NCBI RefSeq assembly: GCF_037031285.1
Contig: NZ_JAYEZO010000001.1
Coordinates: forward strand, 558,001 to 622,000
DNA from: Halobellus sp. LT62
Lineage (GTDB): Archaea > Halobacteriota > Halobacteria > Halobacteriales > Haloferacaceae
Length of the DNA: 64,000 bases
Direction of reading: 5' to 3'
Shown here: one piece after another, positions 5,603 through 64,000 of the stretch
How the letters are laid out: the number at the start of each line of letters is the position of its first letter
How positions within the stretch are numbered: the stretch's first letter is position 1
Made by a program: the position numbers and the translations under genes
The notes under the pieces: model-generated
Seen by the model: the letters and a program-made list of their open reading frames with translations, nothing else
What the model was told of the DNA's origin: nothing
The model's database searches: none

Positions 5603-5786
5603 CTGATTCTGCGCCGTCAGCCGTCGGCGTCTGATCGTGTTTGGTTAAGCGATAGCGGGCAAAAAACCGCCACTGGGTGGGGCTTCCACGGTCTTTTCGC
5701 AACGACATCACCCGTTTCACTCCAAACTACACTGCACCCGGCGTCTCCTGCGAACGTTCAAATACCATACCGGGACCACGAGCGGT

Positions 5787-6551
5787 ATGCTCGCGATCGC
5801 CGGCGGAAAGGGAGGCAGCGGCAAGACGACTACGACGCTCGGGGTGGCCCGCGCGATCGACGGCCCGAGCGTCGCGGTCGACGCCGACTGCGACCTTCCT
5901 AATCTCCACGCGCTCGCGGGCGTCCCTCGGGGCGCGCCGCCCGACGGGCTCGGCCATCCCGACCCGGGAGCGGACGACGACACCCGAATCGTCCCGGCCC
6001 CTCGCGACGCGCCCGATGGGATCGGGAGTCGGCTCCGTCGCCTCCGGGCTCGCGAGCGCGGCGAAGCCGACGCGTCACCGGTCACCGTAGGAGCGATCGG
6101 CCGGTGGGCAGCAACCGGACACACCGCGACGGGCAACCGCGGAGAAGAGTCCGGCCACGACACGCCGCAAGACTTCGACGCGTCACCCGACTGCGCCGCG
6201 CCGCGCGACCGCGAGACTATCGGCACCGTCCTCGTCGACTGCCCGGCGGGCGCGGGGCCGGACGCGACCGTGCCCCTGCGCGTCGCCGACGGCGTGCTCG
6301 TGGTCGCGACGCCGTGCGTCGCCGCCCTTCGCGACGCCGCGAAGACCGCGGCGATGGCGCGAGCGGTCGGAACGCCAGTCGTCGGCGGCGTGCTCACGCG
6401 AGCGCGACTCGTCCCGCCGGGCGTCGAGGAACTGCTCGGCTGTGAGGTCCTCGCGACAGTTCCGGACGCACGCGACCCGCTCGCCGATGAACGTGTCAGA
6501 CGCGCGTACGACGATCTCGGCGCAGCCCTCTTCGATCGGCCGAAAGGCTAA
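5787..6551 (+). CDS. MinD/ParA-like deviant Walker A ATPase
   Basis: The 254-residue protein is a SIMIBI-class ATPase. The deviant Walker A motif GGKGGSGKTT lies at residues 6-15 and the D-x-D region (VDADCDLPN) near residue 36. A DCPAGAGPDATVPL block corresponds to the switch II (DxPxG) motif. Residues about 50-135 are a poorly conserved, low-complexity insertion. Family members position proteins or DNA, or insert metals. The exact role is not predictable. A TATA-like caaatacc at 5758-5765 lies 22-29 bases before the ATG. The next gene, a KaiC-like protein, follows after 25 bases and is likely co-transcribed. Confidence 0.85.
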   Translation: MLAIAGGKGGSGKTTTTLGVARAIDGPSVAVDADCDLPNLHALAGVPRGAPPDGLGHPDPGADDDTRIVPAPRDAPDGIGSRLRRLRARERGEADASPVTVGAIGRWAATGHTATGNRGEESGHDTPQDFDASPDCAAPRDRETIGTVLVDCPAGAGPDATVPLRVADGVLVVATPCVAALRDAAKTAAMARAVGTPVVGGVLTRARLVPPGVEELLGCEVLATVPDARDPLADERVRRAYDDLGAALFDRPKG

Positions 6552-6576
6552 GCCGCTCGACTCCGTACGCGTCGTC

Positions 6577-37622: not shown

Positions 37623-38711
37623 CTACAACAGGTTGTCGAGGTCGTCGTTGGCCCACATATCGCCGGGGTTATCGGGTTTCGCTTCCGCGGCGGTCTCCTC
37701 TTCCTGCGCCTCCTTCGCGCGCTGCATAAACGCCTCCAACCGCTCGGAGCGTTCGATTCCGCCGAGGAGGATCAATGTCGCGATCCGATCGCTCGACAGC
37801 GGGAAGTCGCCGCCGCGAACCTGCAGGCTCCCCGTCTCCTCTTCGACCCAGCGTCGGGCGCGCTCGACGCCCTTCCGCGGGACGGCGTCCTGTCTGCCGG
37901 CGACGACGACGAGCGCGGCGTCGGCGTCGGTCGCGTCCGGCAGGCTCGACCCCGTGAGCAGCGCGCGGCGGGTCGTGCTCATCACGGTGTTGATGTTCTC
38001 CTCGGCCTCGGGGGCCGCCTCAGCGGAGGCGTAGCCGAGCGCGGCGATCGAGCCGTTCCGGAGCGTGTTGATGATCTCCGAGGAGTCGACGACGCTCTCG
38101 GCGACGCCCTCGACGGACTCGCCGGACGCGAGCAGTAGACCGACCCGCTTTGCGATCTCGCGGTTGATCGAGTCGAACCCCTCGGTGACGCTCTCGCCGG
38201 CCGACCGGAACGCGTCGTTGTCGACGAGGAGCAGCGAATCGGACTCGCGCGCGAACGTTTTCAGCGATCGGCCGGCGTTGACTTGGTACATCGATCCCTC
38301 GTCGCGCCCCGGGAGGATACCGAGCCCGTAGACCGGGACGTCGTAGATGCGTTTGAGCTCCTTCGCGACGACGGGCGCGCCGCCGCTGCCGGTGCCGCCG
38401 CCCAGCCCGGCGACGACGAAGATCGCCTCGGCTTCGGCCGTGATCGACCCGTCGAGCGCGGAGAGCACCTCTTGGATATCTGCCTGCATCACCTCCGCAC
38501 CGAGTTCGTTGTCGCCGCCGACACCTTGGCCTTTCACGCGGTCTTGGCCGACGAGGACGGTCTCGAAGGGGAGGGAGCTGAGATCTGCCTGCGCGGTGTT
38601 GACCGCGACAGCGCCGCGGACGGCACCGAACCCCATCCGCTCGTCGAAATCGACCAGTTCGCGGGCGAGTTTCCCGCCGGCTTGGCCGACACCAATCAGG
38701 ACGGACTTCAT
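37623..38711 (-). CDS. cetZ: CetZ tubulin-like cytoskeletal GTPase
   Basis: The 362-residue protein is a tubulin/FtsZ superfamily GTPase that affects cell shape in haloarchaea. The nucleotide-binding T-loop GLGGGTGSGGAP (102-113) is intact. The CetZ-specific part GQGVGGDNELGAEVM is near residue 61. It has the CetZ rather than the FtsZ pattern in the T7 region (TGLGGGTGSG with GRDEGSMYQVNAGRSLK). The C-terminal tail ends DMWANDDLDNLL. Which CetZ paralogue it is cannot be settled. The start MKSVLIGVGQAGGKL is standard. Confidence 0.94.
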   Translation of the reverse strand: MKSVLIGVGQAGGKLARELVDFDERMGFGAVRGAVAVNTAQADLSSLPFETVLVGQDRVKGQGVGGDNELGAEVMQADIQEVLSALDGSITAEAEAIFVVAGLGGGTGSGGAPVVAKELKRIYDVPVYGLGILPGRDEGSMYQVNAGRSLKTFARESDSLLLVDNDAFRSAGESVTEGFDSINREIAKRVGLLLASGESVEGVAESVVDSSEIINTLRNGSIAALGYASAEAAPEAEENINTVMSTTRRALLTGSSLPDATDADAALVVVAGRQDAVPRKGVERARRWVEEETGSLQVRGGDFPLSSDRIATLILLGGIERSERLEAFMQRAKEAQEEETAAEAKPDNPGDMWANDDLDNLL

Positions 38712-38784
38712 ACCCGTATCTCTCCGAGGTGGACCTTCAACCTTGGTGCCTGAGTTTATAAGGGAGAACGGGGCCACTCGCGAT

Positions 38785-39285
38785 ATGACGACCGCACCCG
38801 AGCGAGACGATCTGCGGGCGTGCGAATCCGACGAATTCGACGCTCACCCGACAAATGCCGGGACGATCGAGGCCGGGACCGGCGATCGGGTCCCCGACAC
38901 CGACGCGGATGTCGCCTCGCTCGAACGGCGGCTGGCGTCGGTGGAGGCCGAACTCGACGCCGTCCGCGGGCTCCTCGGCGGCGTCGACGCTGTCGACGAG
39001 GCGGTCGAGCGGCGCGCGTCGATCGCGCTCGCGAAGGTCGAATCGCTGGAAGAGCGGCTGAAATCGTCGGACGGCGGGCTGGTTCGGGAGCGACTTCCCG
39101 AGACGGGCGCGCGCAAGGAGATCTCTCGGTCGAGGACAGCTCACAGCACAGCCACGGCCGACGACGGATCACAGTCGCCCGACGCAAGCGGCGAACGGGA
39201 ACTCGGCGCTGGGACGGTCGAGCCTCGCCGATCCGACGATGAACGCGAGTCGTTGGCGACGCGCCTTCGCGACGCGTTCCAGTGA
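38785..39285 (+). CDS. coiled-coil protein at the start of the pilus-like cluster (DUF7310-like)
   Basis: The 166-residue protein has a coiled coil at about residues 50-105 (SLERRLASVEAELDAVRGLL) within a polar, low-complexity chain. I recall DUF7310 for this position in such clusters. Its stop overlaps the start of the next gene (GTGA). It probably interacts with the secretion apparatus, but no direct evidence is in the sequence. Confidence 0.7.
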   Translation: MTTAPERDDLRACESDEFDAHPTNAGTIEAGTGDRVPDTDADVASLERRLASVEAELDAVRGLLGGVDAVDEAVERRASIALAKVESLEERLKSSDGGLVRERLPETGARKEISRSRTAHSTATADDGSQSPDASGERELGAGTVEPRRSDDERESLATRLRDAFQ

Positions 39286-39743
39286 TCCGGCTGGTCGTCG
39301 CCGCCGTGCTGACAGTGGCGACGCTCGCGGCCGCACTGCCCGCTATCGACGACGCGAGGGCGACCGGGACCGACCGGGAACTGGCGGGAACCGTCGACCG
39401 GATCGAACGCGCCGGGGCGGCACTGGCCGCGACCGAAGACGCGACGCCGAGGCGGTCACAGGCAGCAGTCCGACGTGTGGCGGTCCGGCTTCCGAAAGCG
39501 TCGCTGGCGACCGCGCGACCCGCGTTCGTCGCGATCGGGGGGAAGCCGGATGGAGCGGGGAACCGCTCGCTCGTCGCCTACGGATCGTCCTCGGGGTCGA
39601 CTCGGCTTCGGGGGCTCTCGCTTCCCGTGCCGGTTCGAACGCCGAACGGTCCCGTCGTCTTCGAGGCGACCGGTCGGCACGCCGTCTCGCTCGCGCTCGT
39701 CGTCGACGGCGGCCGGCCGGTGATCGTCGTCACGCGCGGGTGA
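39282..39743 (+). CDS. secreted/membrane-anchored protein in the pilus-like cluster (DUF7311-like)
   Basis: The 153-residue protein starts with a hydrophobic segment (MIRLVVAAVLTVATLAAALPA) and then has a mostly beta, polar part. The GTG start overlaps the previous stop by 4 bases. Likely a partner of the ATPase machinery downstream. No named family function. Confidence 0.65.
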   Translation: MIRLVVAAVLTVATLAAALPAIDDARATGTDRELAGTVDRIERAGAALAATEDATPRRSQAAVRRVAVRLPKASLATARPAFVAIGGKPDGAGNRSLVAYGSSSGSTRLRGLSLPVPVRTPNGPVVFEATGRHAVSLALVVDGGRPVIVVTRG

Positions 39744-39789
39744 GTGGTGCGGGATCGACCGTCGATGTTCGCGCCACCCGGTCCAACGG

Positions 39790-39797
39790 TTTATATA
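39790..39797 (+). promoter_or_regulatory. TATA box, first pilus-cluster promoter
   Basis: tttatata lies 23-30 bases before the ATG of the ATPase gene. It is part of a 34-base block that recurs with one mismatch before 43829 (see findings). Confidence 0.75.
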
Positions 39798-39819
39798 CGG
39801 AGACGCGGCCACCGGCGCT

Positions 39820-41925
39820 ATGACTTCGATCCGCGACGATGAACCGGCGGCCGGTTCCGACTCGACGCTCGCTGACGTCACTACCGCCATCGACCGGTTC
39901 GCTGCGACTCTTGGCCTCGCGACTGACGGCGGCGATCGCAGTGGGCCTGCGGGGGATGCAAAGACCTCAGAAACTGCCGAAGCGTGTCGCTGTCGGCCGT
40001 CCTTCGAACATCCCTCGGGAACGGGGATCACGGACCGGCGAGCGCTCATCGTCGACGCGTCGACGTGTCCCGGCGATGGCGATCTGGCGTTGAGCCCCGG
40101 CTGTCGGGCGACCGTCGTCGCCGCGCTCGAAGAACGCGACGTCGACGTGGTCCGGACGCGCTCGGACGGCATCGAACGCACGTATGCGGACGCCGCGGTC
40201 GGACTGTTGCTCGCCGCCGGTCGATTCGCGGAACGGGCGCGCGCCCACGACGACTCACTGGCCGAGCGCGCACGCGTCGACCCGCTCGGGGCCGCCCACC
40301 GAGCGACGGGTCGCGCGGGGGCGCTCTCACGGATCGCAGCGGAGTCGGGGCTCGCGGCGGGTGTCGATCACGTTGCGGGCCGACGCGGTGGATCGGCGGT
40401 CGATCCGGAATCGAACCGCTACCGGGAGGCGCTTCGAGCGTTCGTCGGACCGACGGTCGCTCGGGCCCGCGTTTCGACGCGGCCGCCGTCCGCCGCGCTC
40501 CGCGAGTCGCGGACGCTCCCGACTGACGCTGAGGTGCGGCGGTACGACACGTGTGACGGCCCGCTGTATCACCTGACGCCGACGGCTCACGACCTCGCTG
40601 CCGACGCGACCGCGACGCTCGCTGCGGCGTATCGCGTCCTCGCGAACGGTTCCGTCGCGGGAGGTTCCCGCGCGGCCGGCAGAGCGGTCCGGCGAGTCGC
40701 CGACGCCGACGAGCCGATCGAGACGATCGCAGCGGTTCTGGATCGGTACACCCGCGGCCTCGGCGTGTTCGAGCATTTCTTCGCCGACGAGCGCGTCTCC
40801 GACGTCGTTGTCTCCGCACCCGTGACGGACGCGCCCGTTCGGGTCGTCGTCGACGGCGAGCGTCGCCCGACGAACGTCCGCCTGACGCCCGACGGAGCCG
40901 CGTCGCTCGCATCGCGCTTCCGACGCGAGAGCGGCCGCGCGTTCTCCCGGAGCGCGCCGACCCTCGACGCCTCGGTCGTCGCCGAGACGGGGCGTCGAAT
41001 CCGCGTCGCGGGCGTGACCGCGCCGGCCAGCGACGGACTGGGGTTCGCGTTCCGCGCCCGCGACGACGACGCGTGGACGCTCCCGCGACTCGTCGGGGCG
41101 GGATCACTGCCCGCGGACGCCGCGGCGTTTCTCTCGCTCGCGGTCGCGGGCGGCGCGGCGACGATCGTCGCCGGAACGCGCGGAGCGGGCAAGACGACGC
41201 TTCTCGGCGCGCTCCTCTGGGAGCTTCCGGCGACGACGCGGCTCGTGAGCATCGAGGACACGCCGGAGCTTCCGATCGAAGCGCTCCGGGAGCGCGGCCG
41301 CGACGTGCAGGCGTTACACACCGACGTCGGCGCGGGAGCAGCCGGGGATTCCGGCGGGGGCAGTACCCGACGGGACGGCGGCAGCGGTCGAAGCGGCTTC
41401 TCGCCGACCGACGCGCTGCGGACGGCGCTCAGACTCGGCGACGGCGCGCTCGTCGTCGGCGAGGTCAGAGGCGGCGAGGCGCGGTCGCTGTACGAGGCGA
41501 TGCGCGTCGGCGCGCACGGGCACGCCGTCCTCGGCACGATCCACGGCGACTCGGCCGCGGCGGTCCGCGAGCGCGTCGTCTCCGACCTCGGCGTGCCGCC
41601 CTCCTCGTTCGGGGCGACTGATCTAGTCGTCACCTGCGTGCGCGACGGCGACGAACGATACGTGTCCGCCGTCGAGGGGGTGCGGACGACGGGCGACGAA
41701 TCGACGTTCGTCCCGCTGTTCCAGCGCCGCGACGGCTCGCTGCAGTCGACGGGGGCCGTCGAACGGGGCGACAGCGCGGTCTTCGAGCGGCTCTGCGGCG
41801 ACTGCGAGTCCTACAGTGACCTCCTGTCTCGGCTCAATCGGACGGCCGAACGGTTCGACCGCCTCGCGTCGGCGTCGCTGACGACGCCCGAGGCGTGCGA
41901 CCGGAGCCGTCGCGGAGGGCTGTGA
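39820..41925 (+). CDS. type II/IV secretion ATPase (PilB/TadA/VirB11-like)
   Basis: The 701-residue protein is the motor of a type IV pilus- or Tad-like system. The C-terminal RecA-like domain has Walker A GTRGAGKTT near residue 451, an Asp-box SIEDTPEL, Walker B ALVVGEVRGGEA near 546, and a His-box HAVLGTIHGD. Residues 1-300 form a less conserved N-terminal domain with two segments of low complexity. A Gly/Ser-rich linker at about 505-527 interrupts the motor domain. The stop overlaps the ATG of the membrane platform gene by one base. Its own TATA box gives a leaderless start. Confidence 0.93.
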   Translation: MTSIRDDEPAAGSDSTLADVTTAIDRFAATLGLATDGGDRSGPAGDAKTSETAEACRCRPSFEHPSGTGITDRRALIVDASTCPGDGDLALSPGCRATVVAALEERDVDVVRTRSDGIERTYADAAVGLLLAAGRFAERARAHDDSLAERARVDPLGAAHRATGRAGALSRIAAESGLAAGVDHVAGRRGGSAVDPESNRYREALRAFVGPTVARARVSTRPPSAALRESRTLPTDAEVRRYDTCDGPLYHLTPTAHDLAADATATLAAAYRVLANGSVAGGSRAAGRAVRRVADADEPIETIAAVLDRYTRGLGVFEHFFADERVSDVVVSAPVTDAPVRVVVDGERRPTNVRLTPDGAASLASRFRRESGRAFSRSAPTLDASVVAETGRRIRVAGVTAPASDGLGFAFRARDDDAWTLPRLVGAGSLPADAAAFLSLAVAGGAATIVAGTRGAGKTTLLGALLWELPATTRLVSIEDTPELPIEALRERGRDVQALHTDVGAGAAGDSGGGSTRRDGGSGRSGFSPTDALRTALRLGDGALVVGEVRGGEARSLYEAMRVGAHGHAVLGTIHGDSAAAVRERVVSDLGVPPSSFGATDLVVTCVRDGDERYVSAVEGVRTTGDESTFVPLFQRRDGSLQSTGAVERGDSAVFERLCGDCESYSDLLSRLNRTAERFDRLASASLTTPEACDRSRRGGL

Positions 41926-43754
41926 TGGCGGGTGCGGCCCGAGTCCGCCGAGCGATTCGCCTCCAGCGGATCGCTCGAACGCTCGCCGAGTGGTACCCGG
42001 GCGACGTCGAGCCGACCGACGACCTCCACCGCTCGCTGGCGTTCCTCGGCAGCGACCTCCGCGCCGACACCGTCGTTCGCGCCGGGTACGTCGCCGCCGT
42101 CCCCGTCGCCGTGCTCGCGCTCTGCGCGCTCGTCGCGTTGCTCCCAGTGCTCCCGGTCGCGGCGTCGGTGCCCGCGGCGGCGGGAATCGGCCTCGGAGCG
42201 ACGCACGTCGTCCATCGACTGCCGGTCGCGGCGGCAACGCTCCGCCGGGCCCGCGCGCTCGGCGATGCGCCCAGTCTCGTCGCGCGCGCGGCACTCCGGC
42301 TTCGACTCGACTCGACGCCCGAGCGGGCCGCGATATTCGCCGCGCGGACGGGCACGGGACCGCTCGCTCGCAGCCTCGCGGCGCACGCCGAACGGACGCG
42401 ATCGGGGCCGTCGGCCGGCCTCGACGCCTTCGCCGCGGAGTGGCGCTCGTGGTTCCCGGCGCTCGAACGGTCGATCGCGCTGCTCTCGGCCGCGGTGGAG
42501 GCACCGCCGGACGAGCGCGAACAGGCGCTCGAACGGGCCTTAGAGACGGTCCTCGACGGCGCGCGAACGGAGATGGCCGAGTTCGCCGGCGACGTCCGCG
42601 GCCCGGCCAGCGGGATCTACGCCTTCGGCGTCCTGCTCCCGCTCGCGCTGGTCGGCGTGCTGCCCGCCGCCCGCGCCGGTGGCGTGACGATTCCCGCCTC
42701 GGTCTTCGTCGTCCTCTACGACGTCCTGCTTCCGGTCGGACTCGTCGGCGCGGGCGCGTGGCTACTCCTCCGACGCCCGATCGCGATCGCGCCGCCGCGC
42801 GTGACTGCGGCGCACCCGGACGTGCCCTCGGAACCGACGCGCGGCGTCGTCGCGGGCGTTCTCGGCGTCGCATTCGGATTCGTCTGCGGCTCGGCCGTCG
42901 CTTCGTGGGCCGCGCCCGTCGCTGCCGTGGGAACCGGGGTCGGCGCGGCGCTCGTCGTTCACTACCGACCGATGGCCGCGGTCCGTCGTGACGTCAGCGC
43001 TGTCGAGGCCGGACTGGCAGACGCGACGGCGGTCGTCGGTCGGCGGGTCGGTGCCGGCGAGGCGGTCGAGACGGCGATCGAGTCGGCCGCGGGGGCGACG
43101 ACCGGGCGGACGAGCGACCTCTTCGAGGCGGCTTCCGGCGTGCAACGTCGGCTGCGAGTCGGCGTCAGAGCGGCGTTTCTGGGCGAACACGGCGCGCTGC
43201 GCGATATCCCGAGCCGACGCGCGCGAGCGACGGCGTCGCTCCTCGCGGTCGCCGCGGCGGAGGGTCGGCCCGCCGGCGGAACGCTCGTCCGACTGGCCGA
43301 TCACCTCACCGAGCTCCGTCGCGTCGAGGAGGAGGCGCGACGAGAGCTCGCGGCGATCACCGGAACGCTGGGTCACACCGCGGCGCTGTTCGCCCCGCTC
43401 GTCGGCGGCGCGACCGTGGCGATGGCGACGCAGATGGCGGCGTCGGAGGCGACAACGGGATCGAGCGCGTCGACAGCGGGTGCGAGTGCATCGACCGCAG
43501 GTGCATCGACGACGGGAGCGACGACATCGCTCGCCGCGACGGGTGTGCCGGGCGTCGCCACGCTCGATCCGTCGACGCTCGGTGCGGCCGTCGGCGTCTA
43601 CGTGCTCGCGCTCGCGGCGGTCCTCACCGTCGTCGCGACCGGGCTCGACCGCGGCCTCGACCGCTCGCTCGTGGGGTATCGAACCGGCCTCGCGCTGCTC
43701 GCTGCGACCGCGACCTATCTCGTCGCGTATCAGGGTGCGGCGATGCTGTTCTGA
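41925..43754 (+). CDS. type II secretion system F/TadC-like platform protein
   Basis: The 609-residue membrane protein is the inner platform that works with the ATPase. It has about eight to nine hydrophobic segments and two T2SSF-like domains (RTEMAEFAGDVRGPASGIYAFGVLLPLA; TLGHTAALFAPLVGGATVAMAT). Residues about 507-532 are a tandem Ser/Ala/Gly/Thr-rich repeat (STAGASASTAGASTTGA). It follows the ATPase gene directly (TGATG overlap), so translation is coupled. Confidence 0.9.
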   Translation: MAGAARVRRAIRLQRIARTLAEWYPGDVEPTDDLHRSLAFLGSDLRADTVVRAGYVAAVPVAVLALCALVALLPVLPVAASVPAAAGIGLGATHVVHRLPVAAATLRRARALGDAPSLVARAALRLRLDSTPERAAIFAARTGTGPLARSLAAHAERTRSGPSAGLDAFAAEWRSWFPALERSIALLSAAVEAPPDEREQALERALETVLDGARTEMAEFAGDVRGPASGIYAFGVLLPLALVGVLPAARAGGVTIPASVFVVLYDVLLPVGLVGAGAWLLLRRPIAIAPPRVTAAHPDVPSEPTRGVVAGVLGVAFGFVCGSAVASWAAPVAAVGTGVGAALVVHYRPMAAVRRDVSAVEAGLADATAVVGRRVGAGEAVETAIESAAGATTGRTSDLFEAASGVQRRLRVGVRAAFLGEHGALRDIPSRRARATASLLAVAAAEGRPAGGTLVRLADHLTELRRVEEEARRELAAITGTLGHTAALFAPLVGGATVAMATQMAASEATTGSSASTAGASASTAGASTTGATTSLAATGVPGVATLDPSTLGAAVGVYVLALAAVLTVVATGLDRGLDRSLVGYRTGLALLAATATYLVAYQGAAMLF

Positions 43755-43798
43755 GGCGGTCAGAAAACCGTTTCCGATCCCGCGAACCCAGCCGAGCG

Positions 43799-43806
43799 TT
43801 TATATA
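43799..43806 (+). promoter_or_regulatory. TATA box, second pilus-cluster promoter
   Basis: tttatata lies 23-30 bases before the ATG at 43829. It stands 44 bases after the stop of the platform gene and is part of the duplicated 34-base block. Confidence 0.75.
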
Positions 43807-43828
43807 CGGAGACGCGGCCAACGGCGCT

Positions 43829-44308
43829 ATGTTCGACCTGACGCTGGACGCGTGGTACGGCTGGATCGGCCTGTCGCTGGCGGGAGTCGCGCTCGTGGGC
43901 GCGGCGACCGGACTCCCGACGGCTCCGCCGCCGGACGCGGGCGCGGTCGGCGCGACGGTGGACCGCGTCGCCGCCGCCGAGTACGCCGCCACCGGCGAAC
44001 ACCCGCTCGACGCCGACGAGATCCGACTCCGCACGCGCCGGATCGGCCTCAGGTCCGACGGCGGAACGGCGCACGCGACGCTTTCGTTCGGTCCGGTCAC
44101 GCCCGTTCCGGCCGACGAGTCGCCGCTGCGCGACGTCCTCTACGGGACGCCGCCAGAGCGGGCCTTCGACTCGCCGGAGGCGTTCAGACAGGCGGTCGTC
44201 GAGGCCCGCGCCGACGCGGGCGACGCCCCGTGGCGACCCGTCGATCGCACGCTGATCGTCCGCCGACTGTCTTGGGAGGGAGTGGATGTCGTCCTCGTCG
44301 ACGCGTGA
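43829..44308 (+). CDS. pilus-cluster protein with N-terminal membrane segment (DUF7283-like)
   Basis: The 159-residue protein has a hydrophobic segment at about 10-30 followed by a polar soluble part (LPTAPPPDAGAVGATVDRVAAAEYAATGEHPLD). I recall such genes as DUF7283. The next gene overlaps its end by 23 bases. It may be a minor pilin-like or assembly protein. Confidence 0.7.
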   Translation: MFDLTLDAWYGWIGLSLAGVALVGAATGLPTAPPPDAGAVGATVDRVAAAEYAATGEHPLDADEIRLRTRRIGLRSDGGTAHATLSFGPVTPVPADESPLRDVLYGTPPERAFDSPEAFRQAVVEARADAGDAPWRPVDRTLIVRRLSWEGVDVVLVDA

Positions 44309-44786
44309 GAGCGCCGCCCGCGGGCCGCGAGCGCTGTCTCCCGGCGCGTCGCGGGCGCAAACGACGCCGCTCGTCGCCCTGATCGCGCTGTTCGCGGTCT
44401 GCACCGGTCTCTCGCTGTACGCGACGACGCTGGGCGCGGTGACGCCGGACGAGACGGCCAACGCGCTCGCCGAACCGACGCTCGAACGGGTCTACGACGA
44501 CGTGAGCGAGGGCGGCGTCGTCTCACCGGTCGGGCTCCCGCGCGACGGCCCGGCCACGCCCGACGGGTACCTCGTCGCCGTCGTGGTGACGACCCCGAAA
44601 GGGACGTGGACCAACGGTCGTCGACCGCCCGAAGCCGCCGGACGAGTGGCGACCGTCGGTTCTGCCGGCGTCGATTCTGCCGGCACCGATACCGACGGCG
44701 TCGATTCCGCCGAGCGACCAGTGTCCGTCGCGACGGTCGACGGCGATGTCGTCTGGGGGACGCTCCGCGTCTGGGTGTGGCGATGA
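44286..44786 (+). CDS. pilin-like protein with class III-type signal (DUF7285-like)
   Basis: The 166-residue protein has SRAQTTPLVALIALFAVCTGLSLY near residue 22, which resembles a pilin/prepilin N-terminal helix with a PibD-like cleavage site after RA (inference). The remainder is a small exported domain with a V-D-S-A-G-rich linker. The start overlaps the previous gene by 23 bases. Confidence 0.65.
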   Translation: MSSSSTRESAARGPRALSPGASRAQTTPLVALIALFAVCTGLSLYATTLGAVTPDETANALAEPTLERVYDDVSEGGVVSPVGLPRDGPATPDGYLVAVVVTTPKGTWTNGRRPPEAAGRVATVGSAGVDSAGTDTDGVDSAERPVSVATVDGDVVWGTLRVWVWR

Positions 44787-44814: not shown

Positions 44815-45765
44815 ATGAACGCCGCCATCGATGCCGTCGTCTGTCTGTTGCTCGTTTCGGCGGCCGTCGTCGGCCTCGTCACCGTCGAGCAGTCGCCGCC
44901 GCCGCCGCCCGGCCGCGCCGACGCCGTGGCGGACACGCTCGCGACGACGACCGCGCAAGTCGACTACTCGCTCGCCCCCGGCGTGCGCGAGGTCGCCGCG
45001 AGTGAGGAGGGTCCAGACGTGTCGGACGTCCCGCTCGACTCGCCCGAACTCGATCGCACGGCGCACGGCAGCCTCGCCGAGTTGCTCGCGCGGGCGACGA
45101 CGTCGACGAGCGGCGTCGATTTCGTGTCGACCGCGAGCGCGGGGAGGAACGCGACGCCGGCCCCTGCGTCGGAGATTCCGCCGCTCACCCGAACGCGGGC
45201 GACGTTCCGGCGCGGCGTCGCCGACGCGGTCCGCGCGCGGACCGGCGCGACGGTTCGGGTCGACGCCACGTGGCGACCGTACCCCGGCGCGCCCGTCGGC
45301 GGGGCGGTCGGCGTCGGGACGAAGCCGCCGCGCGACGGCGTCCACGCGGCGACACTCGTCGTCCCGACCGGCGTCGAGCCGATCCCCCGATCGGCGACGT
45401 GGGACTTCGAGTCCCTCGGAGACGCGGTCGCCGAGCGGACTGTCGCGGTGCTGGTGCCCGCCGGCCCCGCGAAGACGACGCTCCGCGGGAACGACCCGTC
45501 CGCCGCGTTGCTCCGGCACCGCTACGCGCGCCTCGAAACGGAGATAGACGGAGCGGATTCAGCGGAGAACGCGTCGCTCGCGGAACCGCTCGCGACCGAG
45601 GACACCGCGGCGGCGAACGAACGGCTCGCGGCCGCGATCGCCCCGCGGGTTACTGCGGATCTGCGCGCCCGCTACGATTCGCCGGTCGCCGCGGCCGACG
45701 CGGTGTCCGTCTCGTCGGTCCGGATCGTCGTGCGGACGTGGTCGGCCTCCGCGGAGGTCCGCTGA
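44815..45765 (+). CDS. exported pilus-cluster protein (DUF7284-like)
   Basis: The 316-residue protein starts with a hydrophobic segment (AAIDAVVCLLLVSAAVVGLV) and continues with an exported domain rich in Ala, Thr and acidic residues. The stop overlaps the next ATG by one base. No known domain is recognised. The conserved cluster context suggests a structural or minor pilin role. Confidence 0.7.
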   Translation: MNAAIDAVVCLLLVSAAVVGLVTVEQSPPPPPGRADAVADTLATTTAQVDYSLAPGVREVAASEEGPDVSDVPLDSPELDRTAHGSLAELLARATTSTSGVDFVSTASAGRNATPAPASEIPPLTRTRATFRRGVADAVRARTGATVRVDATWRPYPGAPVGGAVGVGTKPPRDGVHAATLVVPTGVEPIPRSATWDFESLGDAVAERTVAVLVPAGPAKTTLRGNDPSAALLRHRYARLETEIDGADSAENASLAEPLATEDTAAANERLAAAIAPRVTADLRARYDSPVAAADAVSVSSVRIVVRTWSASAEVR

Positions 45766-48700
45766 TGCGGCTCGCCGAGGACGACCGCGGTCGCGTTCCC
45801 TTCGCGCTGCTCGGCGTGTTGCTACTCGTCGCGAGCTCGGCGTTCGCGGCGTCGCTCGCGACGCCCGGCCCCGCGCCGGTCGATCGGTCCGCGGACGTCG
45901 CAGCCGACCGCGTGGACGCGGAAGCGACTGCCGCGCTCAGGATCGCCGTGCGGAACGCGGCGCAGGCCGCAGCGCGCGAGCCGGTCACGGTCGCCGCCGA
46001 CACCGACGTCGGGTCCGCACTCGACGGACCGGAGACGTTCCGGAAGTATCTCCGGCTTCGGATCTTCCTCGCCGTTCGCGACGCGATGGATCCGGTCGAA
46101 CACCGCCGCGGCGGCAGCGCCGCCCGCGCGTCGTTCGGCGAGTCGGTTGAATCGGCAGACGCGGCGATCGAGCGCGTCTCGATCGCGGGCGTCGACAGCG
46201 GGACCGAGCTCCGAGTGACGGTTCGCGGACTGAAGCTGACAGTCGAGGCGGACGGCCGCGTCGTCGACACCCGTCGCGTGGATCGCACGGTCACCGCGGG
46301 CGTTCCGGTCTTGGCGCTCCACGACCGGACGGGCGAGTTTCAGGAGCGCCTCGACGCCGGCCCGCTCGAGGGACCGGGGCTCGCTCGCCGCACGACGGTC
46401 GGCGTCACCGCGATGGCACAGGCCCGCGGGCTGGGGCAGTACGGCGGCCTGCCGATCTCGAACGTCGTCGCCAACCGCCACGTCGCGCTCTCGACGAACG
46501 CCGGACTGCTCGACGCCCAGCGCGCCGCGTTCGGCCGGAGCGACCCCGACGCGGCCGCCGGCGTTCGCGCGGCGACGCTGCAGACGGGTGCGGCAGACAT
46601 CTCTGAGATCTCCCCGAACTCACGCGTCGCGTCCGCGGCCACGGGCCAACTTCCCGATCCGAACGACGCCGAGCGGGTGAGCGCGCGCGACGAGTCGGGC
46701 GCACTCCCGGCCACCCGAACCGTCTCCGTCGGCGTCAACGGAACGGCCGACGAGGCGTTCTTGGAGCTGCTTCGAGGGACAAACGGCGCGTCGAGTCTCG
46801 ATTCGATCCTGCGCGACGGCTACCGAGCGGGAGCCTCGGTGAGCGCCAGCACTCGGACAATCAGCAACGAGCGACGTCCGCGTCCGCGCTCGCCCGGTGA
46901 AAACTGGACGCTCGTTCGGTCGGACACGTCGAAATCTGTCGACGTCAGCGGCGACGGTAGCGCCCGATCCGGTTCGCGGATCGGCCTCGGCGAGCGTCGG
47001 CTCTACGCGGCCACCCGGCGCGTCACCGAACGCTGGCGGGTCGAGCGGACGTGGGCCAAGGTCAACGAGACGCCGCGGACGACGTCGGCGTCGTGGGAGC
47101 ACGTCCACCGCGTTCGGGTGACCGGCGAAGCTCGAATCCGCGGGAGCGCGGCACCGACTCGCTCGGTCCGACCGCTGTTCGAGTCCGGCGGCGCGCTCGA
47201 CGGGCCGAACCTGCGCGAGGGACGTGCGGCGACTGCCGCCCTCGTTTCGGATCTCGGCGGCCCCGACGAGATCGCCCGCAGTGCCGTCACCGGCGGCCGG
47301 ACTCGCGCGTCGCGGTCACTCACCGGCGACCGTCCCGCCAACCTCGAATCGTGGGTCTACGCCGACGTGGCCGACCTCCGAGACCGGGTCCGCGATCTCT
47401 CCGTCGAGGTGGACGCCAGCGACGCCGGAACCGGGCAGTCGAACGGAGCCGCGAGGCTCGCCGCGCTCGTGCGCGACCGCCGCGCGGAACTCGTCGACGC
47501 CCCGGACGAGTACGACGGCGTCGCCGACCGGACCCGCGTGGCCGCCCGCGAAGTGTACCTCGATCAGGTACTAGCCGGACTCGACGAGCGCGCCGGCGAC
47601 ACCCGATCGCAGAACGCCGGAATCGCACGCGCGCTGAACGCGAAGGGGCTGGCCGCCGATCGGGTGAGCGAACTCGCCGCGCTCACCCCCGACCCGCCCG
47701 CCCCGCGAACGGACGTCGGCAGCGACGGGGGCGCTCGCGGCGAGGCGGTCCTCGTGCCCGACGGCGACCCGGCCTACCTCGCGCCGGATCCGGTCGAGGG
47801 GACGCTCGTCGACGGCGTCGCCGACGACGAGCAGTACGTCGGGCTCGCGGTCAGGAACGTCAACGTGTTCAGCGTCCCCTACGGCGACGCCGCCGACATC
47901 GTCACGCGGACGCTGTTCGGCGATCCCGGGCGCGTGTCGCTGCACACGGCCGGACAGGCGCTCCTCGCGGCGGAGGAGACCCTGCAATCGCACCCGGACC
48001 CGACGCTCCGACACCGCCGGGACGTCCTCGAATCGAAGGTCGAGGGGTCGATGACGGACGTTCGAGCGACGGCGACGCGGACGCTCGCGAGAGAGACATC
48101 GCTGACGCGCGCGGAACGAGAGCGCGTGACTCGACGCTCGTTCGCCCGCTTCGACGGCCCCGGCGAGCGTGCTGTCGCGGCCACGGACGGCTCGCTGGCC
48201 CGCGAGCTGGCGTCGGTCGCGAGCGCGACGGATACGAGCGCACGCGGTGATTCCCCCGCGATCGCCGAGGACCGCGTCCGGACCGCGCTGCGAGTCGACC
48301 TCCGGCGCGTCGCCACGTCAGAGCGGGTTCGCGTTCCCGAGTCAGCCGTCGACGACGCCGTCTCCTCGGTGCGCGCGGAGATCGAGCGAGAGGCGAACGA
48401 CGCCGCCGAGCGCGCGACGGAACGGGCGATCACCCGTGCGACGAACGACACCGTCGGCGGCATTCCGGCCGGACTGCCGATTTCGCCGACGCTCAGTCCG
48501 TGGGTCGCTACGGCGAACCTCTGGATCGTCGAGTCCCGCGGCGCGTACGGCCGCTTCGCCGTCGGCGTCGACGGCGAGGAGACCACCTACGTCCGCGACG
48601 GCTCCACCGTCTCCCTCGACGTCGACGACGACGGCGGGAGGGAGACGCTGGGTCGGAGTGAACGAGTCGACTTCCGGATCAAAACGGTCGCGCTCGCCGT

Positions 48701-48836
48701 CGTCCCGCCCGGAAAACTCGGCGTCGGCGACACCGACGGGAATACGGACGAGCGGTCGGTCGCGTGGAGCGATCCGTCGCCCGGACCGCGATGTATCACG
48801 TCGACCGGGCAGTGCCCGCGGGAAAATTCGGAATAA
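45765..48836 (+). CDS. 1023-aa surface/exported protein of the pilus cluster (DUF7286-like)
   Basis: The 1023-residue protein begins with a signal-like hydrophobic segment (RVPFALLGVLLLVASSAFAASLA), then a long chain of helices and beta segments. Residues about 520-760 and 800-950 are helix-rich and charged (RAERERVTRRSFARF; VRAEIEREANDAAERATERA). A final segment is VALAVVPPGKLGVGDTDGN. It is probably the outward-facing component of the system. The ATG start is set by the 1-base overlap with the preceding stop. Confidence 0.8.
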   Translation: MRLAEDDRGRVPFALLGVLLLVASSAFAASLATPGPAPVDRSADVAADRVDAEATAALRIAVRNAAQAAAREPVTVAADTDVGSALDGPETFRKYLRLRIFLAVRDAMDPVEHRRGGSAARASFGESVESADAAIERVSIAGVDSGTELRVTVRGLKLTVEADGRVVDTRRVDRTVTAGVPVLALHDRTGEFQERLDAGPLEGPGLARRTTVGVTAMAQARGLGQYGGLPISNVVANRHVALSTNAGLLDAQRAAFGRSDPDAAAGVRAATLQTGAADISEISPNSRVASAATGQLPDPNDAERVSARDESGALPATRTVSVGVNGTADEAFLELLRGTNGASSLDSILRDGYRAGASVSASTRTISNERRPRPRSPGENWTLVRSDTSKSVDVSGDGSARSGSRIGLGERRLYAATRRVTERWRVERTWAKVNETPRTTSASWEHVHRVRVTGEARIRGSAAPTRSVRPLFESGGALDGPNLREGRAATAALVSDLGGPDEIARSAVTGGRTRASRSLTGDRPANLESWVYADVADLRDRVRDLSVEVDASDAGTGQSNGAARLAALVRDRRAELVDAPDEYDGVADRTRVAAREVYLDQVLAGLDERAGDTRSQNAGIARALNAKGLAADRVSELAALTPDPPAPRTDVGSDGGARGEAVLVPDGDPAYLAPDPVEGTLVDGVADDEQYVGLAVRNVNVFSVPYGDAADIVTRTLFGDPGRVSLHTAGQALLAAEETLQSHPDPTLRHRRDVLESKVEGSMTDVRATATRTLARETSLTRAERERVTRRSFARFDGPGERAVAATDGSLARELASVASATDTSARGDSPAIAEDRVRTALRVDLRRVATSERVRVPESAVDDAVSSVRAEIEREANDAAERATERAITRATNDTVGGIPAGLPISPTLSPWVATANLWIVESRGAYGRFAVGVDGEETTYVRDGSTVSLDVDDDGGRETLGRSERVDFRIKTVALAVVPPGKLGVGDTDGNTDERSVAWSDPSPGPRCITSTGQCPRENSE

Positions 48837-59677: not shown

Positions 59678-59811
59678 TTCCGTAGTTTTGCTCTGACTCG
59701 GCCGCAACGTCTCGCTCTGATTCCGTCGACGAGCCTTCTTTCGACTGTCACGCGCCCCTCTCCGAGCGTGCGTTCCGAGCGTTCATATACGAGGGCGGGA
59801 CCACACTGTCC

Positions 59812-60297
59812 GTGGTCGAACGCACCGCCCCGATAACGGACTCGTCTCCCGAATCGGTTCGACGGTCGCTTCGCGCGCTTGCGGACGGCTCCGCGCCGTC
59901 CGAGCGGCCGTCGACCTCGCACGTGACCGACGACCGCGAACGGGTGACTGCGGTCGTCCGAGACGGGGACGAGGCTACTTCGTGCGCGAGAGCGGCGGTG
60001 GCGTTTCTGCTCGACGGCCGACTCGACGAGTTGGACGCGGCGGTCGCTGCGGCCGAACGCGAGCGCTGGGTCGAGATCGCCCGACGCGGACGTAGAGCAC
60101 GTGCTACACTCCGTGCGCTCGATTTGGCTCTCCACGATATTTCGGACGCGAAGCAGGCAGCGAACGGGCAGCAAGCAGCAAACAAGCAGCAGGCACCGAA
60201 CGAGCCGCACGGAGCGCGGGCCGGTCGCGACGACGACCACTTCCGCCCCGCTCGCGGAACGGTTTTAGGACGCAGCGATCAATCAGGGGACAGATGA
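59812..60297 (+). CDS. haloarchaeal protein translationally coupled to mre11
   Basis: The 161-residue protein has a helical core (residues 60-115, ARAAVAFLLDGRLDELDAAVAAAERERW). The C-terminal part is a low-complexity stretch QAANGQQAANKQQAPN. It starts with a GTG. Its last 4 bases overlap the mre11 ATG, so it is translated with mre11-rad50. It is probably a partner in double-strand break repair, by context alone. A TATA-like cattatac-type site (ttcatata) is near 59782. Confidence 0.7.
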   Translation: MVERTAPITDSSPESVRRSLRALADGSAPSERPSTSHVTDDRERVTAVVRDGDEATSCARAAVAFLLDGRLDELDAAVAAAERERWVEIARRGRRARATLRALDLALHDISDAKQAANGQQAANKQQAPNEPHGARAGRDDDHFRPARGTVLGRSDQSGDR

Positions 60298-61784
60298 CAC
60301 GGGTGATCCACACCGGCGACACCCACCTCGGGTACCAGCAGTACCACTCGTCGGCGCGACGCGAGGACTTCCTCGACGCGTTCGAGCAGGTGATCGACGA
60401 CGCGGTCGAGTCCGACGTCGACGCCGTCGTCCACGCGGGCGACCTGTTCCACGACCGGCGACCGGAGCTGCGCGACCTCCTCGGGACGATCCGCGTGCTC
60501 CGGCGGCTCCGGGACGCCGACATCCCGTTTCTCGCGGTCGTCGGCAACCACGAATCAACGCGCGGGGGCCAGTGGCTCGATCTCTTCGAGAACCTCGGCC
60601 TCGGCGAACGGTTGGGCGCGGAGCCGCGAATCGTCGGCGAGACGGCCTTTTACGGCCTCGATCACGTCCCGAAATCCCGGCGGGACGACCTCGAATACGA
60701 CTTCGAGCCGCACGACGCCGCCCACGCCGCGCTCGTGACTCACGGACTGTTCACGCCGTTCGCGTACGCCGACTGGGAGACCGAGACCGTCCTCGAACGC
60801 TCGAACGTCGACTTCGACGCGGTGCTCCTCGGCGACAACCACGCCCCCGGGATCGAGACCGTCGCCGACACGTGGGTCACCTACTGCGGGTCGACCGAGC
60901 GCGCCAGCGCCGCCGAGGAGGAAGCGCGCGGCTACAACCTCGTCAGGTTCGGCGCGGCGGCGGGCGACGCCGACGATGCCGAGAACTCCGACGACGTCAC
61001 CGACGATGCCGCCAACGCGGACGCTGCCGACGCCGACGACACCGGTGAGCGCGAGCGCGCGGTCGACATCCGACGGCGGACGCTCGACACGCGTCCGTTC
61101 GTCTTCGAATCCGTGAAGTTGGCCGCGAGCGAGGGGACAGCGCGCGTCCACGAGCAGCTCCGCCAACACGACGTCGACGACGCGGTCGTCGTCGTCGAGA
61201 TCCTCGGCGACGGCGACCCCGTAACGCCCGCCTCCGTCGAGGAGTCGCTCGCCGAGCGCGGCGCGCTCGTCGCCCGCGTCACCGACCGCCGCGAGCGGGA
61301 CGTCGAGTCCTCCCTCGACGTGTCCTTCGCCGACCCCGACGACGCCGTCGAGGAGCGCGTCCGCGAGTTGGGTCTTTCATCGGCCGCCCTCGACGTCGAC
61401 GAGACGATCCGCGCGAGCAAAACGGCAGACTCGAACGTGCGCGAGGTCGTCGAGAACCGCGTCTCCGACCTCATTGACGACGACCGAGGCGCGTTCGATC
61501 CCGCGCCCGAGTCGGCTGAGTCGGACGAACCGGATTCGCCCGTCGGTGGCGAGTCATCCGATGTCGACGACGTTGATAACGGAGATCACGCAGACGCCGA
61601 TGGCGACGATAACGCAGACGAGGTCGACGGCGAACTCGCAGAAGCCGCGGGCGAAATCGGTGGAGAGGACTCGGAGTCGGCCGACGGAGGAGACCCAGAA
61701 TCGGTGGACAGCGAGGACTCGGAGTCGGCCGACGAACAGGTTTCGCGCCCGACCGACGGACAGGTCACGATGGAGGACTTCTAG
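60294..61784 (+). CDS. mre11: DNA double-strand break repair nuclease Mre11
   Basis: The 496-residue protein is a Mn-dependent nuclease of the Mre11-Rad50 complex. Phosphoesterase motifs are HTGDTHLG (D9, H11), HAGDLFHDRRP (D50), VVGNHES (N85, H86), VTHGLF and LLGDNHAPG. An acidic insert follows the motif block (around 225-250). A long acidic Asp/Glu/Ser/Gly tail from about 400 ends in QVTMEDF, a conserved-looking end. rad50 begins immediately after the stop, so they are co-transcribed. Confidence 0.95.
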   Translation: MTRVIHTGDTHLGYQQYHSSARREDFLDAFEQVIDDAVESDVDAVVHAGDLFHDRRPELRDLLGTIRVLRRLRDADIPFLAVVGNHESTRGGQWLDLFENLGLGERLGAEPRIVGETAFYGLDHVPKSRRDDLEYDFEPHDAAHAALVTHGLFTPFAYADWETETVLERSNVDFDAVLLGDNHAPGIETVADTWVTYCGSTERASAAEEEARGYNLVRFGAAAGDADDAENSDDVTDDAANADAADADDTGERERAVDIRRRTLDTRPFVFESVKLAASEGTARVHEQLRQHDVDDAVVVVEILGDGDPVTPASVEESLAERGALVARVTDRRERDVESSLDVSFADPDDAVEERVRELGLSSAALDVDETIRASKTADSNVREVVENRVSDLIDDDRGAFDPAPESAESDEPDSPVGGESSDVDDVDNGDHADADGDDNADEVDGELAEAAGEIGGEDSESADGGDPESVDSEDSESADEQVSRPTDGQVTMEDF

Positions 61785-64000
61785 ATGCGCTTCGAACGAA
61801 TCCGCTTGCGGAACTTCAAACCGTACGCGGACGCGGAGCTCGACCTCCGCGACGGCGTCACCGTCATCCACGGGTTGAACGGCAGCGGCAAATCATCGCT
61901 GTTGGAGGCGTGCTTCTTCGCGCTGTACGGTGCGAACGCGCTCGATGAGACCCTTGACGACATCGTGACGACGGGCGAGGACGAGGCCGAGGTCGACCTG
62001 CAGTTCGCCCACGAGGGCGAGACGTTCAACATCCGACGGGAACTTCGGCGCTCCGGGGACCGCATCGGGACGACGATCTGCACGCTCGAAGGCCCCGACG
62101 TCGCGGTCGACGGCGCGACTGACGTCCGCGCGTTCGTCACCGACCTCCTGCGGATGGACGCCGAGGCGTTCGTCAACTGCGCGTACGTCCGCCAGGGAGA
62201 GGTGAACAAGCTCATCAACGCCACGCCGGCCCAGCGGCAGGACACCATCGACGACCTCCTTCAATTGGGGAAGTTAGAGGAGTACCGCGAACGGGCCGGG
62301 CAGGCGCGACTCGGCGTCGAAGACGTCCGATCGGAGAGGAAGGGCGCGCTCGCGAAGCTCGACTCCCAGATCGAGGCCAAGGAGGACGCCGACCTCCACG
62401 CGCGGCTGAACGAACTCGAAACGAAGTTGGCCGACGTCGATTCCGATATCGAACGCTTCGAGGAGCAAAAGGCGCGCGCGGAGGAGACGCTCGCGGAGGC
62501 CGAGGAAGTCCTCGACTCCCACGAGGAGACGAAGGCGACGCTCGACGACCTCGACGGCGACATCGCCGACCTCCGAGAGACGATCGAATCAGACGAGAAA
62601 GAGCGCGACGAGCTCCGCTCGGAGATCGTCGACCGTCGCGATCGGATCGACGAGCTCGAACGTGAGCTCGAATCCGCGGCGGAGAAGACCGATCTCGAGG
62701 GAGCAACCGGCGCTGACGACGCGGTCGACGCGGCGGCGGTCGACGCCGACGTGCTCGACGCGCGCCGCGAATCGCTGAACGAGCGGGAGGAAGCGGTCCG
62801 CGAGGAACTCACCGACGCGCGCCGACGCGAGACGATGCTGTCGAACCAAGCCGAGAAGTTGGCCGAGCGCGCCGACGAGTTGGAGACGCGCGCGGAGGAA
62901 CTCCGAGAGCGCGCCTCGGAGGCGGAATCGACCGCGAACGACGCCGAGAGCCGGGCCGAAGAGCGGAGCGCGGAACTGGCGGAACTCGACGACGAGATCG
63001 ACGCCCTGCGCGAGCGCTTCGACGACCCGCCGGTCGCGGTCGGCGAGGCCACGGCCCATCGCGAGTCGGTGCAGGCCTCGCTCCGAGAGACGCGCGAGTC
63101 GCTCGCGACGAAGCGCGCGGAGTTGGAGTCGGCCCGAGAGCGCCTCGAAGAAGCCGAAGCGCTCCGCGCGGCGGGGAAGTGCCCCGAGTGCGGCCAGCCG
63201 GTCGATGGATCGCCGCACGTCGACGCCATCGGCGAACACGAGGCGGAGATCGCCGACCTCGAAGCCGACATCGATGATCTCGAAGCGGAAGTGGACGAGC
63301 GTGAAGCGGCGCTGGAGACCGCGGAATCCCTCGTCGACGCCGAGTCGCGCTTGGGGAACCTCCGCGAGAAGCGCACGCTGATCGAGAGCAGCATCGAGGA
63401 CGCCCGCGAGACCCTCCGAGAGCGACGCGAGGAGGCCGAATCCGCTCGCGAGGAGGCGGACGAACTCGACGCGCAGGCCGAAGAAAAGCGCGAGGCGGCG
63501 GAGACCCAGTCGGCGGCCGCCGAGGACGCCGAAGCGGACGTCCAATCCCTCGAAGGCGATCTCGACGAGATCGAAACCGAACGCGAGCGGTTGGATCGAG
63601 TCGAGGCCCTCCGCTCTGCGATCGACGAGGCGGATTCGGAGATCGATCGGCTTCGGGAGCGCCGACAGACCATCGCCGAGCAGAACGACGAGCGGCGGGA
63701 GTACCTCCAAGAGAAGCGTGAGCGACGCGAAGAACTGGCCGACGCGGTCGACGAGGAGCGCGTCGAGACGGCCAAGGCAAACAAAGCGGACGCCGAGGAG
63801 TATCTCGCGAACGTCCCCGAGAAACTCGACGAACTCCGCGGACAGCGCGACGCACTGCAGAACGACATCGGCGGCGTGAAGACGTCGCTCACAGAGCTCG
63901 AATCGCTCCGCGAGGACAGGGCGGAGATCGCCGCGAAGGTCGAGGCGCTGGACTCGGTTCACGAGGAGATATCCACGCTGGAATCGACCTACAGCGACCT
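61785..64000 (+). CDS. rad50: DNA double-strand break repair ATPase Rad50 (3' end outside window)
   Basis: The visible 738 codons encode the N-terminal Walker A lobe and most of the first coiled coil of Rad50, an SMC-like ATPase that acts with Mre11. Walker [10 protein letters not shown] is at residues 30-38 and the Q-loop region is [12 protein letters not shown]. The zinc hook CPECGQPV begins at residue 466, after a long helical arm, and the second arm follows. The ABC signature and Walker B lie beyond the window end. The ATG starts directly after the mre11 stop codon. Confidence 0.96.

Follow-up and report, generated by a model that had tools for sequence, protein, structure and literature searches.

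The pilus-like gene cluster and its promoters

A 64,000-bp stretch of the Halobellus sp. LT62 genome (contig NZ_JAYEZO010000001.1, positions 558,001 to 622,000 of the forward strand), referred to at its whole length as the window, carries a type IV pilus-like gene cluster. Within the cluster, a 34-base block extending from the TATA box through the ATG start codon stands before two genes, which, as a sequence-only reading of the window had stated, encode an ATPase (T2SSE-type, PF00437) and the first member of a pilin-like set (DUF7283, PF23954). By sequence comparison, the repeated block is an extreme case of one conserved haloarchaeal promoter element (hereafter, the element), not a recent copy. 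The features of the cluster are as follows.

37623..38711, minus strand: CetZ tubulin-like gene, divergent from the cluster (PF21011, CetZ_C, 8e-65)
38755..38787, plus strand: third promoter in the cluster with the element, that of the DUF7310 coiled-coil gene (TTTATA-ATG 30 nt)
38785..39285, plus strand: DUF7310 coiled-coil protein (PF23991)
39282..39743, plus strand: DUF7311, in-operon control without the element (PF23993)
39789..39822, plus strand: promoter of the pilB2-type ATPase gene with the element, through the ATG (sequence comparison)
39820..41925, plus strand: T2SSE ATPase, pilB2-type by synteny with cetZ (PF00437, 4e-20)
41925..43754, plus strand: PilC-like membrane protein (weak T2SSF match, 0.0012, below cut-off; position after the ATPase kept in relatives)
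43798..43831, plus strand: promoter of the DUF7283 gene with the element, through the ATG (sequence comparison)
43829..44308, plus strand: DUF7283, pilin-like set (PF23954)
44286..44786, plus strand: DUF7285 (PF23956)
44818..45765, plus strand: DUF7284 (PF23955)
45762..48836, plus strand: DUF7286, about 1000 amino acids (aa), marker of the system (PF23957)

Direct reading of the two blocks, GTTTATATACGGAGACGCGGCCACCGGCGCTATG at 39789-39822 and GTTTATATACGGAGACGCGGCCAACGGCGCTATG at 43798-43831, confirmed the near-duplication with 33 of 34 bases equal, and the earlier wording of an exact match has to be corrected for a single C/A difference. The coding sequences differ immediately 3′ of the ATG at both sites, as had been claimed. 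The first 20 bases of the block occurred twice in the window when up to 3 mismatches were allowed, against a mean of 0.00 in 100 shuffles. At both blocks the distance from TTTATA to ATG is 30 nucleotides (nt), which by sequence is the spacing of a leaderless transcript. Three further sites of the same type with equal spacing, at 5757, 38755 and 59782, had been missed by the sequence-only reading.

Conservation of the element at the pil promoters

The repeated block had been attributed either to a recent copy or to selection for co-regulation of motor and exported parts, and different sequences at the two sites in relatives had been considered to speak against conserved shared regulation. In most relatives the element is retained at each of the two sites, and that objection therefore does not hold. 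DUF7283 was present in 44 of the 60 genomes of a same-family sample, and one regular expression for the TATA-RCCA-start arrangement demonstrated the element before DUF7283 in 39 of 44 loci (including the window and three named Halobellus records), before pilB2 in 35 of 40 and before DUF7310 in 20 of 37. The same expression found no element before the in-operon controls DUF7311 (0/33 loci) and pilC (0/40). When the DUF7283 promoters were aligned by start codon, T at -30 and C at -11 were present in 40 of 40.

A recent duplication or gene conversion of the promoter inside the cluster would account for the 33/34 identity, and also for the pilB2 and DUF7283 sites being more alike within than across genomes (16.17 vs 14.50 of 22 nt in 30 genomes, 0/5000 permutations; 15.54 vs 14.12 of 22 nt in 24 genomes with the own genus left out, 3/5000 permutations). 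Such within-genome likeness is what is expected if both sites follow one DNA-reading protein. The repeat search returned a 65-nt pair, 39758-39822 and 43767-43831, of only 77% identity, so that similarity drops upstream of the TATA box. H. captivus (L178) has the pilB2 promoter of the window unchanged together with a DUF7283 promoter of another sequence, and neither promoter of H. rufus (L179) equals that of the window, a pattern which indicates that each promoter was inherited in place and that both are old and separately inherited. Moreover, the element occupies both sites in other genera, as well as many unlinked sites. Given the H. captivus and H. rufus promoters, the 77% upstream block and the conservation in relatives, the recent copy was rejected, with next to no probability left to it. 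Of the earlier interpretation, the co-regulation of motor and exported parts was supported, and its restriction to these parts was not, since far more genes bear the element.

Form and specificity of the element

The element is laid out as a TATA box, about 8 nt, CGSGRCCA, 8-9 nt and the start codon, with CGSGRCCA positioned between the TATA box and the start site of the predicted leaderless transcript. A 21-mer allowing up to 3 mismatches had 11 genomic occurrences versus 0 for the reversed pattern. Generalised to TTBAWD-N8-VGSGRCCA, the genome-wide pattern found 46 sites versus 6 for its reversed control; 29 of the sites preceded members of a family of small RNAs, 10 preceded protein genes (start codon at +30/+31), and 7 neither. 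An ATG-ending version demonstrated the same specificity in four further genomes (G033, from the own genus, and G047, G027 and G058), with 16 sites against 0 for the control. These stood before pilB2 (3), DUF7283 (1), DUF7310 (1), DUF7382 (1), a MinD-like gene (1), a ParA-like gene (1), DUF7857 (2), a nuclease-like gene (1), RNA copies (3, one of them weak with E 0.002) and neither (2).

A TATA box and leaderless spacing are ordinary in themselves, as they would be if the element were merely a general strong haloarchaeal promoter. The basal motifs proposed for haloarchaea, as given in the accessible text of the source, are the B recognition element (BRE), the TATA box and a WW -10 element (PMC4983044), whereas the element is GC-rich near -10, not WW. 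Within 464 kb of own sequence (the window plus a 400-kb sample), 115 open reading frame (ORF) starts had a TATA-like box at leaderless distance, and only 8 of these had GSGRCCA, 7 in the proposed regulon and 1 other. Together with the pattern controls (6 vs 46 and 0 vs 16), this led to rejection of a general core promoter, which is very improbable.

Element-bearing genes outside the pilus-like cluster

Two further promoters of the window with the element lead into an ATPase gene and into the mre11-rad50 genes.

5757..5789, plus strand: promoter of the MinD-like gene with the element (counterpart before the MinD-like gene of G033, L230)
5787..6551, plus strand: MinD-like ATPase (PF01656, 2e-9; TIGR01969 below cut-off)
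59782..59814, plus strand: promoter with the element, small gene directly upstream of mre11-rad50 (18/30 loci)
59812..60297, plus strand: 161-aa protein overlapping the mre11 start (no Pfam match)
60294..61784, plus strand: Mre11 (NCBIfam NF041030, Mre11_Halo, above cut-off)
61785..64000, plus strand: Rad50-like ATPase, continuing past the window end (AAA_23, SMC_N)

Elsewhere in the genome the element stands before a DUF7382 pilin-like gene, from which a HerA-like ATPase gene diverges, and before genes for DUF7857, a ParA-like ATPase and a PLD-domain protein, a nuclease of PLD type that is apparently secreted as judged by eye. Upstream of the mre11 operon the element was found in 18 of 30 loci, versus 1, 0 and 0 in control stretches of the same length.

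The ORF right after the MinD-like gene (window 6442-7203) encodes DUF7125 with a KaiC-type ATPase match, and the two genes probably form one operon. In G058 (L223/L294), the element precedes a gene whose 224-aa product resembles a RecB/Cas4-type nuclease on reading and has no Pfam match.

Structure of the small RNA family

The RNA copies follow a common plan of RTG-NNN-stop (in most copies), a 9-bp stem, a loop segment pairing with a downstream segment, and a CTGTTCGCC-like end. They are predicted to be transcripts of 78-130 nt with the 5′ start GTGNNNTGA. The pairing of the two strands constitutes a covariation-supported H-type pseudoknot, the first stem of which begins 7 nt past the stop. 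In an alignment of 25 own copies (29 less L103, L109, L129 and L134, excluded for length or insertions), 96.3% of cells were paired, with two-sided change in 9 of 16 pairs. An alignment of 49 matches (19 of the 29 own copies and 30 from relatives), which was fitted to the first stem and thus favours that stem, and not to the pseudoknot, had 97.4% of cells paired against a shuffled mean of 78.0%, with two-sided change in 14 of 16 pairs and 136 cells (0/500 shuffles); slid versions of the pairing gave 25-47%. The folding energies of five copies were about those of shuffles (z 0.25, -1.08, -0.57, -0.01 and 0.74) with a program that cannot form pseudoknots, and as the pseudoknot lies outside its scope, the case for the structure is made by covariation alone.

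The segment from stem 1 to the 3′ pseudoknot strand (columns 60-133 of the 25-copy alignment) is highly variable in sequence and length in the own genome, where by eye it is often hairpin-like, and it is very short in many copies of other genera. In the first loop, L109 (C1:539 kb) and L134 (C2:422 kb) of the own genome have similar inverted repeats of about 70-80 nt, which give the impression of a small inserted element.

Among 120 distinct copies (L242, an incomplete locus, was excluded), RTG was the start in 119 (GTG 111, ATG 8), and codon 3 was a stop in 116 (TGA 92, TAG 15, TAA 9), that is in 26 of 29 own and 90 of 91 model-found copies. The 5′ end is therefore described as an apparent leaderless two-codon ORF. 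It could instead be a protein-binding or initiator motif, RTG-NNN-TRR: position 4 is mostly A, whereby GTGANNTGA could be such a motif; Thr accounts for 69 of 120 second codons, a bias; and since these columns are part of the RNA model, they are favoured in the copies found with it. A motif accords poorly with a third triplet that is one of the three stops in the numbers given and TGG only once in 120 copies, with the avoidance of G at both last positions (Fisher 6e-12, the copies not being independent), and with the absence of stops in codon 2 or codon 4 from all 120 copies, and is accordingly rather unlikely. Upstream, CCA was located 7-10 nt before the start in 75 of 91 model-found copies versus 2-6 at four other offsets; only these 91 copies count, as the 29 own copies were found via the element and their CCA is not evidence.

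Of 59 copies, rough heuristic gene calls placed the downstream gene on the opposite strand for 37 and on the same strand for 19, with no gene called for 3. The copies thus look like free-standing RNA genes, and a cis-acting leader or riboswitch is not favoured. Against Rfam 15, the RNA positions of L003, L004, L006, L007 and L008 had no match at gathering, and those of L105, L123, L139 and L142 none at E≤1. The C box RTGATGA of C/D box small RNAs (sRNAs) was present in 0 of 120 copies. No clear enrichment over shuffled words was seen for antisense pairing between pil mRNAs and the conserved tail, the loop or the 5′ end of the RNA (sense 4, 3, 24 and 3; shuffled means 1.7, 3.0, 8.5 and 0.6; maxima 17, 22, 38 and 5). 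Haloferax sRNA132 likewise is a haloarchaeal sRNA that lies between genes and has a basal promoter to itself; in the available part of its description (PMC6560208) it is confined to Haloferax and has two stems with a pyrimidine-rich linker, and that part mentions neither a pseudoknot nor a start-X-stop. On comparison with this description, sRNA132 was rejected as a member of the family.

Distribution of the RNA family

In the family sample of 60 genomes, the RNA model matched the own genome 38 times and two same-genus genomes 28 times each; another 34 genomes had 1-11 matches, and 23 had none. Members are spread over several families of the order. Among 146 genomes of the order the RNA was detected in 70 and DUF7286 in 92, absences and copy numbers over many genomes being lower bounds because the stricter filters lose weak matches and the candidates were capped. 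RNA and DUF7286 occurred together in 68 genomes, DUF7286 only in 24, RNA only in 2 and neither in 52 (Fisher 2e-18), and counted by genus the corresponding numbers were 25, 9, 2 and 20 (Fisher 2e-6). With DUF7283 in the family sample they were 33, 11, 4 and 12 (7e-4). Both RNA-only exceptions, G061 and G077, carry DUF7857; all 70 RNA-positive genomes thus have DUF7286 or DUF7857, and the RNA was found in 0 of 52 genomes with neither. These counts demonstrate the co-occurrence of RNA and pilus system. A plasmid search with one RNA copy returned one record, from Halobellus limi.

With 38 dispersed matches in one genome and the inverted-repeat insertion in two copies (L109, L134), the family might be taken for a mobile repeat of the miniature inverted-repeat transposable element (MITE) kind that spreads the promoter, in which case the sharing would be uninformative on regulation. 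The copies vary in sequence while their pairing is kept by compensatory change, however, and neighbours are common to genomes of one genus (L156/L166, L151/L159, L161/L162), which suggests that copies were inherited in place; the pil promoters are orthologous across genomes as well. A mobile repeat is hence improbable.

A divergent TFB paralog as candidate reader of the element

Between the element-bearing DUF7857 and ParA-like genes, a divergent paralog of transcription factor B (TFB) is encoded (Pfam TFIIB, 1e-36). DUF7857 is present in 87 genomes, and in 20 of 30 loci examined the TFB gene adjoins DUF7857-MinD; several of these loci end before that point. The linked TFBs of four genomes form one clade with support of 96/93, apart from other TFBs; those of the other three genomes are 65-70% identical to the own copy, and other full-length TFBs at most 50%. 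A distinct TFB paralog conserved together with regulon genes is a mark of an alternative-TFB regulon, and here it is seen in the 20 of 30 loci and in the clade.

TFB contacts promoter DNA between the TATA box and the start site. The position of the element coincides with this DNA, which makes the model of an alternative initiation factor attractive: the divergent TFB paralog would read the element in the manner of an alternative sigma factor. From the sequence evidence this is a serious candidate mechanism, if slightly less likely than not.

In three genomes (L293:5067-5080; orthologs in L328 and L329) the TFB gene has an inverted repeat of the form ACCGGTTACCGGT on its upstream side, which suggests that the TFB gene may itself be under a regulator.

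Alternatively, a classical DNA-binding repressor or activator could bind CGSGRCCA and control the same genes. The element overlaps the position of the polymerase footprint, which suits a repressor, and haloarchaeal regulators act from defined near-promoter sites in the available parts of the studies on CdrS (PMC8406309) and CsmR (PMC13286277). By eye the element contains no palindrome, unlike many homodimer sites, and the TFB is the sole transcription factor noticed beside element genes, in neighbourhoods that were not systematically searched. On the sequence data, such a regulator is a possibility to be taken into account, if a less favoured one than the TFB paralog.

Sites of two such regulators were compared with the element. 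The CdrS regulon of Haloferax volcanii resembles the present case in being haloarchaeal, defined by a promoter motif and linked to a tubulin-like protein. In the text available (PMC8406309), 15 of its 18 sites have the motif 41-110 nt before the start site, whereas the element is 3′ of the TATA box; as it lies between TATA box and start codon, identity with the CdrS site was ruled out. Control of the archaellum by CsmR/CirA likewise involves a promoter-proximal motif and a type IV filament, but the motif TATCA(N4)TGATA is placed upstream of BRE and TATA box in the accessible part of that report (PMC13286277), unlike the element. It is absent from 39758-39822 and 43767-43831, and a CsmR site was thus ruled out.

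The proposed regulon

Taken together, the conserved element probably marks a regulon of the pil cluster, DNA-handling genes and the RNA family, and we strongly infer that the element-bearing genes are transcribed together. Its protein-coding members would be the pilB2/C2 type IV pilus-like operons, the DUF7382 pilin-like gene with the divergent HerA-like ATPase, the MinD/ParA-like ATPases, DUF7857, the apparently secreted PLD-type nuclease and the operon of the small gene, mre11 and rad50; the multicopy pseudoknotted RNA family would complete it.

Several observations weigh against this regulon and its reading by the TFB. The promoter data fit a classical regulator equally well, and the TFB gene is itself without the RCCA element. 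No match to the expression used was found in 17 of 37 DUF7310 loci and 12 of 30 mre11 loci, and only 11 of 30 DUF7857 loci matched a strict expression for the element. The mre11 expression was chosen after inspection of these same loci, and the 18 hits include a weak one in G029, a genome without DUF7283. The co-occurrence values are inflated by shared ancestry, for which the genus-level count is the sole correction. The RNA was not detected in 24 of the 92 DUF7286-positive genomes, including the low-GC, same-genus G005, whose pil promoters deviate.

G005 (L050) has the pilus cluster, no detected RNA and the deviating pil promoters, and would thereby offer a natural test of the need for the RNA.

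Pilus, DNA-translocating ATPase and recombination genes are under one control in bacterial competence (ComX/combox) and in the Ups/Ced systems of Sulfolobales. By this analogy the purpose of the regulon might be DNA import and recombination, a tentative proposal drawn from gene content alone; unlike those systems, the present one has as its candidate a TFB rather than a sigma factor, and many pseudoknotted RNAs. Joined into one model, an alternative-TFB regulon for DNA import with dozens of paralogous two-codon-ORF and pseudoknot RNAs as its most numerous products is unlikely to hold in full. If it did, the RNAs would represent a new class of RNA that engages ribosomes. A ribosome initiating at the 5′ end would halt with its leading edge at the pseudoknot, and during expression of the pilus and recombination genes the RNA could capture or sense terminating ribosomes, or gain stability from them. 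The family is notable in any event for its presence in 70 of 146 genomes, its strong covariation, its unusual conserved start-X-stop and the lack of an Rfam 15 match where tested.

Relation to described pilB2/C2 systems

The window resembles the described pilB2/C2 system (PMC9856176, PMC4858521; statements here refer to the accessible parts of both) in its pair of ATPase and membrane protein, its CetZ neighbour and its predicted pilin-like set, and the coiled-coil protein of the related halobacterial system matches the cluster. PilB is followed by PilC (T2SSE 4e-20; T2SSF 0.0012, below cut-off) in an order kept in relatives, and the CetZ_C gene (8e-65) at 37623-38711 takes the place of the adjacent cetZ2. 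By sequence, the cluster fits a pilB2/C2 system beside cetZ2. Within those parts, the biological role of cetZ2-linked pilB2/C2 systems is called unknown (PMC9856176, PMC4858521), and they report neither an element common to promoters nor an RNA family, a TFB paralog or a connection to mre11; the word "promoter" occurs 0 times in PMC4858521. In the literature searched, as far as its accessible text goes, no description was found of the element or of a wider regulon around it, nor of the TFB link or the RNA family. The sharing of the element with mre11-rad50, the HerA-like ATPase and nucleases, and the linked TFB, would provide the pilB2/C2 system with a testable hypothesis, namely DNA import and recombination. 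The genetically tractable Haloferax volcanii has both DUF7286 and DUF7857.

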